Source: a virus. From it: DNA of 25,037 nucleotides. Below the pieces are notes generated by a model. It saw only the letters and a program-made list of their open reading frames with translations. It was not told where the DNA came from and made no database searches. Made by a program: the position numbers and the translations under genes. Shown piece after piece: positions 3 to 13,249 of the stretch. The stretch covers positions 1-25,037 of IMG/VR virus record IMGVR_UViG_3300047356_000517. One strand, 5' to 3'. Numbering within the stretch: the stretch's first letter is position 1; every line of letters begins with the position of its first letter.

Positions 3-776
3 CAGCTAGGCCATTCTTGCACATACAACGGTGGCAATGGCATTGATGTAATCTGGAGTGTTCTTTGGAATGGTAGAATGTTACACAACCAAAAGATATG
101 GAGTGAGAACAAACGATTAAACAAGCCAACGATTGTTCTTGAAGTAGGTGGTATTAAAAGAGGAACAACTTGGAAAGTAGGATTAAATGGTATCAATCGT
201 GATGGCGACTATCTGCCTGATAGCAATGATAGTACTCGCGCAAGCCTTCAGGGATTAAAACTTAAACCTTGGAGAACAACTGGCGATTTTATTTTAGTAT
301 GCGGTCAGCACAATAAAAGTTTACAATGGCAAGATATGCCTAGTATAAGCAACTGGTTTTTAAATATCTATGACGAAATACGTAAACATACAGATCGCCC
401 TATTTTACTTAGGCCACATCCTCGTTGCAGATTAGACCAAATTGAACGTGGACTAAGGAATGTACATAGACAAGAGCCAATGCAACTTGTTAATACATAT
501 GATGATTTTGATATGACATTTAATGATATATGGGCTACAGTAAGTCATAGTAGTAACCCAGGAGCACAAAGTATTATAGCAGGCGTTCCTAGTTTTGTTA
601 GTCCTAGTAGCCTTGCTTACGATGTTGCTAATGACATAGATTTCTTTCACGATATTGAAGATCCCTTAATGCCAGATCGAACACAGTGGCTAAACGACTA
701 CGCTTGGACAGAGTTTACAGTTGAAGAAATATCCCAGGGCATACCACTTAAACGCTTGACATCTATGCTCGAGTAA
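3..776 (+). CDS. Possible GT-B-type glycosyltransferase, 5' end cut by window
   Basis: The reading frame is open from the window edge, so the N-terminus is missing; the first internal ATG at 78 is probably not the true start. The C-terminal half contains LRPHPR, then HSSNPGAQSIIAGVPSFV, an order (basic RPHP segment, then a small-residue loop with a Gly-Val-Pro turn) that recalls the sugar-nucleotide-binding half of GT-B glycosyltransferases and CDP-glycerol-transferase-like enzymes. No signal peptide or membrane segment is visible in the part seen. The stop codon lies 14 nt before the next gene, and the final codons contain that gene's -35 box. The glycosyltransferase idea fits the Kdo genes further on but rests on weak local resemblance. 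It could equally be an uncharacterised phage protein. Confidence 0.6.
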   Translation, partial: QLGHSCTYNGGNGIDVIWSVLWNGRMLHNQKIWSENKRLNKPTIVLEVGGIKRGTTWKVGLNGINRDGDYLPDSNDSTRASLQGLKLKPWRTTGDFILVCGQHNKSLQWQDMPSISNWFLNIYDEIRKHTDRPILLRPHPRCRLDQIERGLRNVHRQEPMQLVNTYDDFDMTFNDIWATVSHSSNPGAQSIIAGVPSFVSPSSLAYDVANDIDFFHDIEDPLMPDRTQWLNDYAWTEFTVEEISQGIPLKRLTSMLE

Positions 777-784
777 GTTATACT
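756..784 (+). promoter_or_regulatory. Sigma-70 promoter giving a leaderless mRNA
   Basis: TTGACA at 756-761 and TATACT at 779-784 are separated by exactly 17 nt. The ATG of the following gene begins at 791, so 6 nt separate the -10 box from the start codon and transcription should begin at about the A of ATG. No Shine-Dalgarno sequence is present. The promoter lies inside the last codons and just past the stop of the upstream gene. Confidence 0.8.
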
Positions 785-790
785 GTATGT

Positions 791-1993
791 ATGATTACAG
801 TAGAAGATTACATCGAAGTATTAGCAGGTATCCAGTCCGGCGGCGAGTCTATTAAGTTAGATAGATCTGATTACAATCTTATTGCAAGTTTAGCAAGGCA
901 AACGTTTAAAGGTATTCCGTATACTGATAGACAATGCGATCTTGCAAAAACTAAAATTGTGCAGTACACAGAACAGTTAGGTCAAGCAGGGTGGGTTGTT
1001 GATGAGTTAGATAACTTACGAATGCCGTTGAGAGAAATTGATCGCAGTAGATGGATTAAATTAGAAACAACTAGTGCAGGCGAATCAATTGCTGTCCGAT
1101 TTACATTTCAAAAGAAATTAATATCAGCATTAGAAAAACTTTCGTCAAAACCTCATTTTTATGATAAAGTACGAAAAGTACAATATTTTTTATATAGTGA
1201 AAAGGCATTGTTTGATATTGTAAATGCGTTTAAAGACAGAAATTTTGAAATTGATGACACTATAACAGATATGTACAACAAGATTTCTTTGTTTGATAAA
1301 GAAGCATCAGTGCCTGGAGTTTATAATTCTGAGCTTAAAAATTTGCCAGTATCAGCTACTAAATTAATTGAAAACGAAATTGGAAAGTTAAGTGCTGACA
1401 ACTTATTGTTATATAAAGATCGTAGTTTAAAATACGGGCTTAATATTGATTACGAAGCAGATAAAAACACTCTTGAAGGTAGAATTGCAAATAGATTAGA
1501 ATCAAATGTATGTCTTGACGATAATTTGGTAAAAATTGATGTGCTTTTACTAGCATTAGAAAAACTCCAACGCACTAAATTAATGATATTAGTTTCAGCT
1601 AATGACAGTCATTCTACATATAATAATGTAGTAGAAGTACACCAGCATCTCAAATATTTGATACCAAGCGATAAAATAAGTGTTTCATTTAGATTAGATA
1701 ACGTAAATGATGGTCTTGAGTTTAACAACTATATTAAAAGACAAAAAATTAATAATAAGGTTGACAAAGATACAAAAGTAGTGTATAATTTAAATAATAA
1801 ATTACCAAAGCCTCTTTATTGTTCTAATTGGGTACCTGATGCTATTTTATTATTAAATTCAAACGGGTACATAGCAACAAGAAAAGTATTAGACTGTTAT
1901 CCAGGTGTTGACTTAGTGATACACCTAAACAAGCCTAATATGGTTGCAGGCTACGGAGCATACTATATGAAACGTGGAGTACAAAAAATTTAA
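791..1993 (+). CDS. Unknown 400-aa phage protein upstream of UvsW
   Basis: I do not recognise this family. It is a soluble-looking, Lys/Asp/Asn-rich protein without signal peptide or membrane segments. A notable local segment is LRMPLREIDRSRWIKLE near residue 80; the C-terminal third alternates hydrophobic strands and polar turns. Its start is fixed by a near-consensus promoter whose -10 box ends 6 nt before the ATG, implying leaderless translation. The stop overlaps the UvsW start by one base (TAATG), so the two are probably translationally coupled and may work in the same DNA-repair or replication process. It also carries a perfect internal promoter (1761-1789). The existence of the gene is well supported by length and context; its function is not. 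Confidence 0.8.
   Translation: MITVEDYIEVLAGIQSGGESIKLDRSDYNLIASLARQTFKGIPYTDRQCDLAKTKIVQYTEQLGQAGWVVDELDNLRMPLREIDRSRWIKLETTSAGESIAVRFTFQKKLISALEKLSSKPHFYDKVRKVQYFLYSEKALFDIVNAFKDRNFEIDDTITDMYNKISLFDKEASVPGVYNSELKNLPVSATKLIENEIGKLSADNLLLYKDRSLKYGLNIDYEADKNTLEGRIANRLESNVCLDDNLVKIDVLLLALEKLQRTKLMILVSANDSHSTYNNVVEVHQHLKYLIPSDKISVSFRLDNVNDGLEFNNYIKRQKINNKVDKDTKVVYNLNNKLPKPLYCSNWVPDAILLLNSNGYIATRKVLDCYPGVDLVIHLNKPNMVAGYGAYYMKRGVQKI
1761..1789 (+). promoter_or_regulatory. Internal consensus sigma-70 promoter ahead of uvsW
   Basis: TTGACA (1761-1766), a 17-nt spacer and TATAAT (1784-1789) form a 12/12 consensus promoter inside the 400-aa gene. No ATG follows at the 6-nt distance used elsewhere; transcription from about 1796 would yield a roughly 200-nt leader before the uvsW start at 1993. 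It probably provides separate expression of the helicase. Confidence 0.6.
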
Positions 1994-12222: not shown

Positions 12223-12230
12223 ATAAAAAC

Positions 12231-12259
12231 TTGACAAGTATCGTTAATTGCGCTATAAT
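12231..12259 (+). promoter_or_regulatory. Perfect sigma-70 promoter giving leaderless primase mRNA
   Basis: TTGACA (12231-12236), 17-nt spacer, TATAAT (12254-12259): 12/12 consensus. The ATG at 12266 follows after exactly 6 nt, again without a ribosome binding site. Confidence 0.85.
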
Positions 12260-12265
12260 AATAGT

Positions 12266-13249
12266 ATGAGTGTAGTTAACGATACAGTTCTGACATACCT
12301 GCCGCCTAAGCGTAAAACAACGCCTAGTGGTTGGTTATCTTTTAATGCTACGTGTTGTCACCATAATGGACACGCGGCAGACACTCGCGGTCGCGGAGGA
12401 TTAATTAGCAATCCAGATGGCGGTGTAAGCTATCATTGCTTTAATTGCGGCTTTAAGGCATCCTGGCAACCGGGCAGAAACTTTTCACATAAATTGCGTA
12501 AACTCCTACAATGGATGGGAGCTCCTGACGATATAATCAACAAGGTGGCACTTGAAGTGATGAGAGAGAATGAAGGTGTTGTAGCACAAACACAAATAGC
12601 TCAACTACCAACATTCAATACTGTCCCGTTGCCAGACGATGCTATGAAAATTACCGACATAACAAACTTTGACAAATATAGTATGGCTGTACTTGAGTAT
12701 ATGGTATCACGTGGACTAAACGTAGATGACACAGACTACTATTGGAGCCCGAGCTTAGGGTATCGTGATAGGCTTATTGTTCCATTTTATTATGAGAAAC
12801 GTATCGTAGGTTGGACCGGACGTAGTGTAGTACCTGATAAAAAGCCCAAGTACCTTACAGAAGTGCAACCAGGGTTTGTATACGGACTTGACGAGCAGAG
12901 TTATAATAAAGTATTTGCTATTGTATGTGAAGGACAACTAGATGCTATACACGTTGATGGTTGTGCATTAGGTGGTAGTGAGATTAGTGATCAACAAGCT
13001 ATGTTACTAAACAGGCTACAGAAACAAATTATAGTTGTGCCTGATAGAGACAAAGCAGGTAGTAAATTAATTGAACGTGCAATTGACTTAGGATGGAGTG
13101 TAGCGTTACCTGAATGGCCGTCAGATGTTAATGACATAGGAGATGCTGTGAGTAAATACGGTAGGCTATATACGTTATACAGCATTGCTAATACAGCTGA
13201 GGATAGCCCGTTAAAGATTAGACTGAGAGCAAAGAAATGGTTTGGTTAA
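12266..13249 (+). CDS. DNA primase, gp61-like
   Basis: A 327-aa primase. The N-terminal zinc-binding domain has TCCHHNGH (about residues 29-36) and YHCFNCGF (57-63), which form the cysteine/histidine metal site that recognises template DNA. The TOPRIM domain has IVCEGQLDAI (conserved Glu) and IIVVPDRDKAG (the metal-binding D-x-D). T4 gp61 is 342 aa, so the length fits. With the hexameric helicase encoded at 15680 it would form the primosome and make RNA primers for lagging-strand synthesis. The start at 12266 is chosen by its promoter; an upstream TTG in frame (12248) lies inside that promoter. The last 13 nt overlap a 25-codon ORF. Confidence 0.9.
   Translation: MSVVNDTVLTYLPPKRKTTPSGWLSFNATCCHHNGHAADTRGRGGLISNPDGGVSYHCFNCGFKASWQPGRNFSHKLRKLLQWMGAPDDIINKVALEVMRENEGVVAQTQIAQLPTFNTVPLPDDAMKITDITNFDKYSMAVLEYMVSRGLNVDDTDYYWSPSLGYRDRLIVPFYYEKRIVGWTGRSVVPDKKPKYLTEVQPGFVYGLDEQSYNKVFAIVCEGQLDAIHVDGCALGGSEISDQQAMLLNRLQKQIIVVPDRDKAGSKLIERAIDLGWSVALPEWPSDVNDIGDAVSKYGRLYTLYSIANTAEDSPLKIRLRAKKWFG

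Follow-up and report, generated by a model that had tools for sequence, protein, structure and literature searches.

Start-codon-proximal sigma70 and late promoters suggest leaderless expression in T4-type phages

Does a phage gene whose ATG lies exactly 6 nucleotides (nt) behind a consensus sigma70 -10 box begin its mRNA at the start codon itself? The question is raised by a 25,037-base virus record, IMGVR_UViG_3300047356_000517 (the whole of which is referred to here as the window), in which the genes for a 400-amino acid (aa) protein, a TonB-dependent receptor and a DNA primase each directly follow a TTGACA-N17-TATA(A/C)T-N6-ATG unit. A first-pass annotation of this DNA had described these units and proposed leaderless expression, and direct reading confirms their coordinates, 17-nt spacers and 6-nt gaps. 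The window (bases 1-25,000) has no near match in 50,697 phage records, and it carries T4-type replication genes: the primase (12266), a DnaB-type helicase (15680) and a UvsW-like helicase (1993).

Sigma70-type units in the window

The features concerned are the following.

756..784, + strand: sigma70-type promoter TTGACA-N17-TATACT (-35 box 756-761, -10 box 779-784, 6-nt gap to ATG 791)
791..1993, + strand: 400-aa protein, function not assigned, putatively leaderless (family of 16, without a Pfam or PHROG match)
1761..1789, + strand: fourth promoter-like match, inside the 400-aa open reading frame (ORF), with no ATG behind it
10319..10347, + strand: sigma70-type promoter TTGACA-N17-TATACT (-35 box 10319-10324, -10 box 10342-10347, 6-nt gap to ATG 10354)
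10354..12096, + strand: TonB-dependent receptor (PF00593 and PF07715), putatively leaderless
12231..12259, + strand: sigma70-type promoter TTGACA-N17-TATAAT (-35 box 12231-12236, -10 box 12254-12259, 6-nt gap to ATG 12266)
12266..13249, + strand: DNA primase of the T4 gp61 type (phrog_47 DNA primase, PF13155), putatively leaderless

Four TTGACA-N15-19-TATAMT sites occur in the window against 0.15 expected, all of them on the + strand and with a 17-nt spacer, and none of 100 shuffles reaches four; the full unit with N6-ATG, present three times, is not found across 300 Markov-1 simulations of the window. The match at 1761..1789 is probably due to chance, and the promoter at 10319..10347 abuts the stop codon of the preceding gene. 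The three genes had also been said to lack a ribosome binding site, which agrees with the weak pairing to the 16S tail at each of them (-2.2 kcal/mol at 791, +1.3 at 10354 and +1.8 at 12266). By comparison, a Shine-Dalgarno energy of -4 kcal/mol or lower is reached at 14 of the 27 listed window starts (one of the 27, at 7931, is not a start codon). Eight further listed starts also fail to reach -4; these overlap or closely trail the preceding gene, where coupling can serve instead of a Shine-Dalgarno sequence.

The first residue of the 400-aa protein is an invariant methionine in 16/16 family members, the window primase aligns with most of its relatives from residue 1, and the N-terminus of the TonB receptor resembles a signal peptide by eye. 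A mechanical ORF list puts the primase start at TTG 12248, inside the promoter; relatives keep ATG 12266.

Spacing in relatives and a second promoter class

IMG/VR relatives were taken as the best 80 of 596 matches, with primases 55-90% identical to that of the window. Of these loci, 73 entered the spacing sample as such and the remaining seven within seven larger records; together with the window this makes 81 records (2.35 Mb). Promoters were called strong if at least 11 of 12 hexamer letters matched with a spacer of 16-18 nt, and the -10-to-ATG distance was recorded for each ATG that lay no more than 60 nt away and headed an ORF of 80 codons or more, with exact repeats counted once. The enrichment at 6 nt that the first-pass annotation had looked to as a test of its reading is strong: 94 cases lie at exactly 6 nt, with 5 at 5 nt and 16 at 7 nt, for a total of 115 in the 5-7 nt range; there are none at 0-4 nt, 2 at 8-11 nt and 8 at 12-19 nt, followed by a broad hump at about 22-40 nt that represents genes with leaders. 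GTG or TTG starts number only 2 at 5-7 nt, compared with the 115 ATGs. Under stricter criteria, the window and the full set of 80 loci contain 118 promoters, 59 of them at 6 nt, 9 at 7 nt, 4 at 5 nt and 18 without an ORF, and one 357-kb record (G001) has 80 strong promoters with 9 at 5-7 nt. By protein clustering, the 115 near cases fall into 17 groups, and since one is an interrupted primase (L070), 16 are unrelated; the largest are primase (54), helicase (18), the 400-aa family (12), a 155-aa family (10) and TonB (6), the others having one to three members each.

Shine-Dalgarno potential was scored as pairing of the 16S tail with the stretch 20 to 4 nt upstream of the start. The 112 distinct leaderless-type starts have a median of +0.6 kcal/mol, and 4% reach -4 or lower (4% in shuffles), whereas the 95 leadered starts have a median of -6.1 kcal/mol and 81% do so (shuffles 42%). 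A is the commonest base at the corresponding +1 position of the leadered class (54/95), which adds little because A is also common at nearby positions. The near genes thus lack a Shine-Dalgarno sequence, use AUG as start codon (the primase of phage PA5oct, with GTG, is an exception) and stand behind TTGACA / TATAAT promoters with a spacer of 17 ± 1 nt.

A second class, overlooked by the first-pass annotation, has a late-type promoter with the ATG at the presumed +1, so that the leaderless account was supported for sigma70-type promoters and incomplete beyond them. Among the hexamers upstream of 2,638 candidate ATGs, which belong to 1,186 called genes of the window and seven large records, TAAATA at -11 stands out beside the Shine-Dalgarno sequence. 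When NATAAATA is required to have an ATG ORF of 60 or more codons starting no further than 45 nt behind it, 283 cases are found: 29 at 4 nt and 68 at 5 nt (97 leaderless-type), 7 at 0-3 nt, 2 at 6-7 nt, 8 at 8 nt, and leadered cases that form a hump beginning near 16 nt. The boxes match ATAAATA (TATAAATA-like), the first base often being G. Pairing is again weak at the 97 near starts (median +0.3, 7% at -4 or lower), which form 24 clusters, one holding 50, as against a median of -5.9 and 82% at the 157 leadered late starts. According to the available text of PMC2988020 the T4 late box is 8 bp long and begins at -13, so that a box ending 5 nt before the ATG would place its A at +1. Both arrangements are present in the window.

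9538..9545, + strand: late-type box GATAAATA, 5 nt before ATG 9551
9551..10318, + strand: 255-aa virion-structural-like protein, putatively a leaderless late gene (phrog_14467 'virion structural protein', E 7.6e-9, over 50 residues only)
22678..22685, + strand: late-type box TATAAATA, an ordinary leadered contrast (29-nt leader with AAGGAG, ATG 22715, Shine-Dalgarno energy -8.5)

The spread of these distances bears on whether the transcripts might be only near-leaderless, with a leader of 1-3 nt or a start varying by a base or two. The sigma70 cases at 5 and 7 nt (5 and 16 of 115) and the late boxes at both 4 and 5 nt (29 and 68) are compatible with this, and RNA polymerase is known to shift its start by one base. 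We nevertheless regard it as quite unlikely in view of the sharp sigma70 mode at 6 nt, the 5-nt distance at 15/15 late genes of cultured pelagiphages, and the pyrimidine that precedes the A in 82/91 six-nt sigma70 cases and in 96/97 late ones (T 78, C 18, G 1).

Conservation of the sigma70 unit was scored in every N-terminal homologue of the window genes (promoter score at least 10/12, distance 3-9 nt), the best of several candidate starts being taken alike in all families. The unit is kept in 16/16 members of the 400-aa family, down to 29% identity, in 62/66 primases and in 5/6 TonB receptors; it is absent from UvsW (0/26), u249 (0/65), struct255 (0/66) and the gene preceding the 400-aa gene (0/17), and rare in the DnaE-like (1/65), KdsA (2/31), KdsB (1/36), carbamoyltransferase (1/54) and gene 15033 (1/5) families. 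The late unit occurs at 4-5 nt in 51/66 relatives of gene 9551 and is absent in 13 other window families. The -10-to-ATG distance is kept in every family, and some flanking letters are also kept in the primases: among 55 distinct primase promoters, information content is 1.0-2.0 bits in the -35 and -10 columns, no more than 0.5 bit in 11 of the 17 spacer columns and 0.7-1.0 in the other six, and the 6 nt before the ATG keep a T at -4, an A at -3 and a pyrimidine at -1 (54/55). We note that an imperfect inverted repeat surrounds the -10 box of the primase promoters (12246-12265 in the window) and could be an operator; columns -13 and -2 covary weakly (p 0.0025, without correction for multiple testing or for relatedness), a covariation not seen in the four other families tested, all of them small.

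Leaderless expression weighed across phages

The reading we favor, with a probability of about 0.8, is that these phages make leaderless mRNAs from two promoter types, one served by host sigma70 and the other a phage late promoter. With sigma70, host RNA polymerase would initiate some 7 nt downstream of the -10 box, at the A of the ATG, so that the 5' end of the mRNA would be the start codon, and the ribosome would bind via the terminal AUG in place of a Shine-Dalgarno duplex. In the late class, host polymerase with a phage gp55-like sigma would act from a box ending 5 nt (sometimes 4) before the ATG, at a selected set of genes, mostly of one virion-structural family. Because the same genomes also carry leadered Shine-Dalgarno genes in both classes, the choice would be made gene by gene and kept by selection on spacing. 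This reading is supported by the 6-nt peak, by the missing Shine-Dalgarno sequence as against the strong one of leadered genes, by family-wise conservation as against the negative-control families, by the convergence of two promoter types on the same presumed +1, and by the division of promoter classes among gene families. Also in its favor are the -35 and -10 boxes kept beside a mostly variable spacer, the gp55-like sigma, the lack of hits to a phage polymerase in the records searched, the agreement with annotated starts in two cultured pelagiphages, and the absence of the geometry before ATGs in T4, S-RIM8, RaK2 and Vibrio phage 2.275.O. The RNA start at the A, the leaderless route of translation and the timing are predictions from sequence; AUG-first mRNAs are documented for other phage genes (PY54, by rapid amplification of cDNA ends, RACE).

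As to the enzyme, a gp55-like late sigma (phrog_12791, E 1e-77 or better) is encoded by the four largest records (G001-G004), and not in the window fragment itself; no Sigma70_r4 or RpoB-type (PF00562) protein appears in any of the ten largest records, which are mostly fragments and in which RpoC was not searched. Host polymerase is therefore likely to read both promoter classes, and its use at the sigma70-type units, as claimed in the first-pass annotation, gains indirect support from this negative result and from the consensus boxes. The same PF00562 result, 0 of the ten mostly fragmentary records, speaks against a phage of the phiKZ/AR9 type, with its own multisubunit RNA polymerase.

Cultured relatives found through the primase number 71 records, mostly jumbo phages, at identities of 37% or less. 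Cultured phages were scanned in the same manner, with ATG ORFs of 60 codons or more admitted up to 45 nt from the promoter, and counts are given as near sites (sigma70 at 5-7 nt, late at 4-5 nt) over all promoter-linked genes. T4 (sigma70 0/0, late 0/30), S-RIM8 (0/6, 0/19) and RaK2 (0/26, 0/30) have none, although T4 and S-RIM8 gain a single late case each if GTG or TTG is admitted; G001-G004 pooled give 15/79 and 26/134, which differs from these three phages with Fisher p 0.005 for sigma70 and 4e-6 for late, relatedness being ignored. Both geometries occur in the pelagiphages HTVC008M (1/8, 9/18) and Mosig (2/10, 6/30), where 18/18 leaderless-type sites coincide with annotated gene starts, and in PA5oct (1/11, 2/40) and, weakly, SCTP-2 (1/39, 7/94). 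In PA5oct, EST35_0222, a structural protein detected by mass spectrometry and having a late box at 5 nt, directly precedes the primase, which has TTGACA-N17-TATAAT-N6-GTG, and the exonuclease gene EST35_0240 lies at 7 nt. Of three further PA5oct sites, the predicted starts at 12831 and 248668 do not coincide with any annotated gene, and at 32876 (GTG) the annotated gene lies elsewhere, so that some pattern matches are not genes. The SCTP-2 primase has a weaker unit, TTGACA-N16-TAGCAT-N6-ATG.

The annotated start of the PA5oct primase, a GTG touching the -10 box, would fit the idea that true start codons lie elsewhere and that the spacing follows incidentally from some motif located close to the ends of genes. 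That annotation is probably wrong, and with relatives aligning from the same residue, several unrelated families sharing the spacing, and the 18/18 agreement in the pelagiphages, we consider such displaced starts highly improbable.

Several observations weigh against leaderless expression as a general and sufficient account. The unit is kept only partly in the helicase (20/56) and 155-aa (12/60) families, and the window's own helicase is without a clear unit by eye. In the primase promoters five spacer columns next to the -10 box are partly conserved, and together with positions -4, -3 and -1 this may mean that something besides spacing is selected. Vibrio phage 2.275.O, a member of the wider group, lacks the mode (sigma70 0/2, late 0/39), as do Atu_ph07 (0/6, 0/23) and Phosso (0/1, 0/24) in the 200 kb read of each, and the raw late-box count in SCTP-2 is weak, at 14 compared with 16 for a reversed-pattern control. 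Shared ancestry among the loci also inflates the counts, for which the 16 unrelated sigma70 clusters and 24 late clusters are the fairer figures.

The setting of the genes raises a further alternative, in which the promoters are real and translation proceeds from longer read-through RNA at an unstructured, Shine-Dalgarno-free start, with the spacing a matter of gene compaction. In its favor, 57 of 113 leaderless-type ATGs sit 30-40 nt past an upstream same-strand stop, and the first 40 nt are weakly structured, at a mean of -2.4 kcal/mol compared with -5.5 inside the same genes. Compaction, however, fails to explain a sharp 6-nt mode with none at 0-4 nt, a different promoter type reaches the same +1, and long leadered promoters exist in the same genomes; we judge translation by read-through unlikely. 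With upstream stops so near, read-through RNA would carry such ORFs without a ribosome binding site, and leaderless expression could then extend to promoter-gated translation, in which an ORF stays silent in read-through RNA and is translated only from the AUG-first RNA of its own promoter, perhaps aided by the phage's own ribosomal protein bS21. This extension is tentative and we hold it to be somewhat doubtful. If it were true, the choice of transcription start would be a choice of what gets translated, and replication genes (host sigma70) and virion genes (gp55-like sigma) could be timed separately within mixed operons.

Other candidate causes fared poorly. Ribosomal protein bS21 (PF01165 or annotated) is present in G001, G002, PA5oct, SCTP-2, HTVC008M and Mosig, all with the geometry, and was not found in T4, S-RIM8 and RaK2, which also lack it; as a cause it is not supported, for Vibrio phage 2.275.O, Atu_ph07 and Phosso have bS21 and yet no such site (in 200 kb of each of the latter two), leaving 6/6 versus 3/6 (Fisher p 0.18). 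G003 and G004 have the geometry without bS21, but both are fragments. T4 RegB is described in the accessible part of PMC3014915 as cutting GGAG; escape from RegB through leaderless mRNAs that lack GGAG was dismissed, as T4 was the one record out of 13 in which RegB turned up. A phage IF3 was found in none of 10 records. Nor is the mode special to this clade: an IMG/VR sample has at least 106 distinct TTGACA-N17-TATAAT sites, at least 54 with an ORF ATG within 60 nt and at least 13 at 5-7 nt, of which 13 one comes from the clade.

Neighboring genes and known systems

Several of the genes concerned have features of their own. The structure model of the 400-aa protein (mean predicted local distance difference test score 80.7, predicted template-modeling score 0.60) has no PDB match at E 0.001, the best having E 0.022 and a template-modeling score of 0.12. 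The gene at 10354-12096 is a full TonB-dependent outer-membrane receptor in a phage, and a TonB receptor with the same promoter is also found in the primase loci of four relatives (L013, L025, L026 and L028); a search returned 16 loci, the best at 36% in an 8.5-kb contig of a Flavobacteriaceae metagenome-assembled genome (MAG). The other full-length matches are at 24-26% in Campylobacterota MAGs, and no host was called from the receptor. Primase genes are seemingly interrupted near codon 22 in L070 (~3550-4409), L049 (~9215-10001) and L051, which reads like L049, and ORFs that by eye resemble GIY-YIG genes lie within the gap or close to it, one such ORF in L049 carrying its own TATAAATA-N5-ATG. 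Short-gene arrays with a strong promoter per gene lie in L209 (G001 1-20000), L012, L013 and L026 (minus strand), their 30-39-nt leaders ending in a GAGGGC-like ribosome-binding motif. Elsewhere in the window, 8608-9168 encodes a 186-aa protein with a PDIDIDF motif that matches phrog_11778 (DNA polymerase, E 7e-59), apparently a small DnaE-like piece, whose relative in Phosso is annotated as a DnaE-like DNA polymerase III alpha; and at 6064-7495 KdsA-like and KdsB-like genes (by eye from translations) stand beside oxygenase-like and cupin-like genes in a possible surface-sugar module.

Leaderless mRNA and -10-adjacent ORFs are already known; what appears new, as far as the literature searched extends, is that T4-type phages would use them systematically, and from two classes of promoter. 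In the open-access literature, to the extent that its text was available, we found no study of leaderless expression in phages of the T4 type or in jumbo phages that rely on host polymerase, and the word 'leaderless' was not found in the accessible portions of PMC6892783, PMC9723584, PMC13282480 and PMC12753301. The best documented phage cases are a few repressor genes: in lambda cI and in PY54 cI and cro (the PY54 starts being mapped by RACE in the available text of PMC4488713) the promoter likewise stands directly before the gene and the mRNA begins with AUG. Those cases concern one or two regulatory genes of temperate phages, whereas here the start is predicted for many genes, mainly of replication and the virion, in T4-type phages and from two promoter classes, and the mode looks systematic and kept over deep divergence. 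In the sections available of PMC3160421 and PMC12340547, the -10-adjacent ORFs of Deinococcus-Thermus and the TA-led leaderless genes of bacteria carry their -10 box some 12 bp ahead of the start codon, counting from the first T of the box, and, as here, lack a Shine-Dalgarno sequence. Theirs is a cellular mode, often without a -35 box; here consensus -35 and -10 boxes stand in phage DNA beside Shine-Dalgarno genes, along with a late-sigma version.

T4 shares the ATAAATA late box and gp55-like sigma with these phages and differs in the placement of the box, with 0/30 ATG-linked late boxes at 4-5 nt, or one if GTG and TTG starts are allowed; its gene e is a reverse case, in which early read-through RNA hides the ribosome binding site in a hairpin (PMC3014915, text in part). 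AR9 is likewise a large phage with mapped promoter classes, and its 5' untranslated regions, at 26-491 nt in the available part of PMC5312081, are unlike those predicted here; the same source remarks in passing that phage transcripts are often leaderless. HTVC008M and Mosig EXVC030M share both geometries, at annotated starts, and have an annotated gp55-like sigma and bS21, in smaller genomes (147 and 141 kb) and mostly in the late class. The mode would extend to cultured marine T4-type phages, and in part to PA5oct. From the geometry, transcription starts can be predicted with single-base precision, and these phages could serve as natural material for studying the mechanism, timing and purpose of leaderless translation in infected cells; the mode points to a second, little-noticed expression route for chosen genes of large phages.

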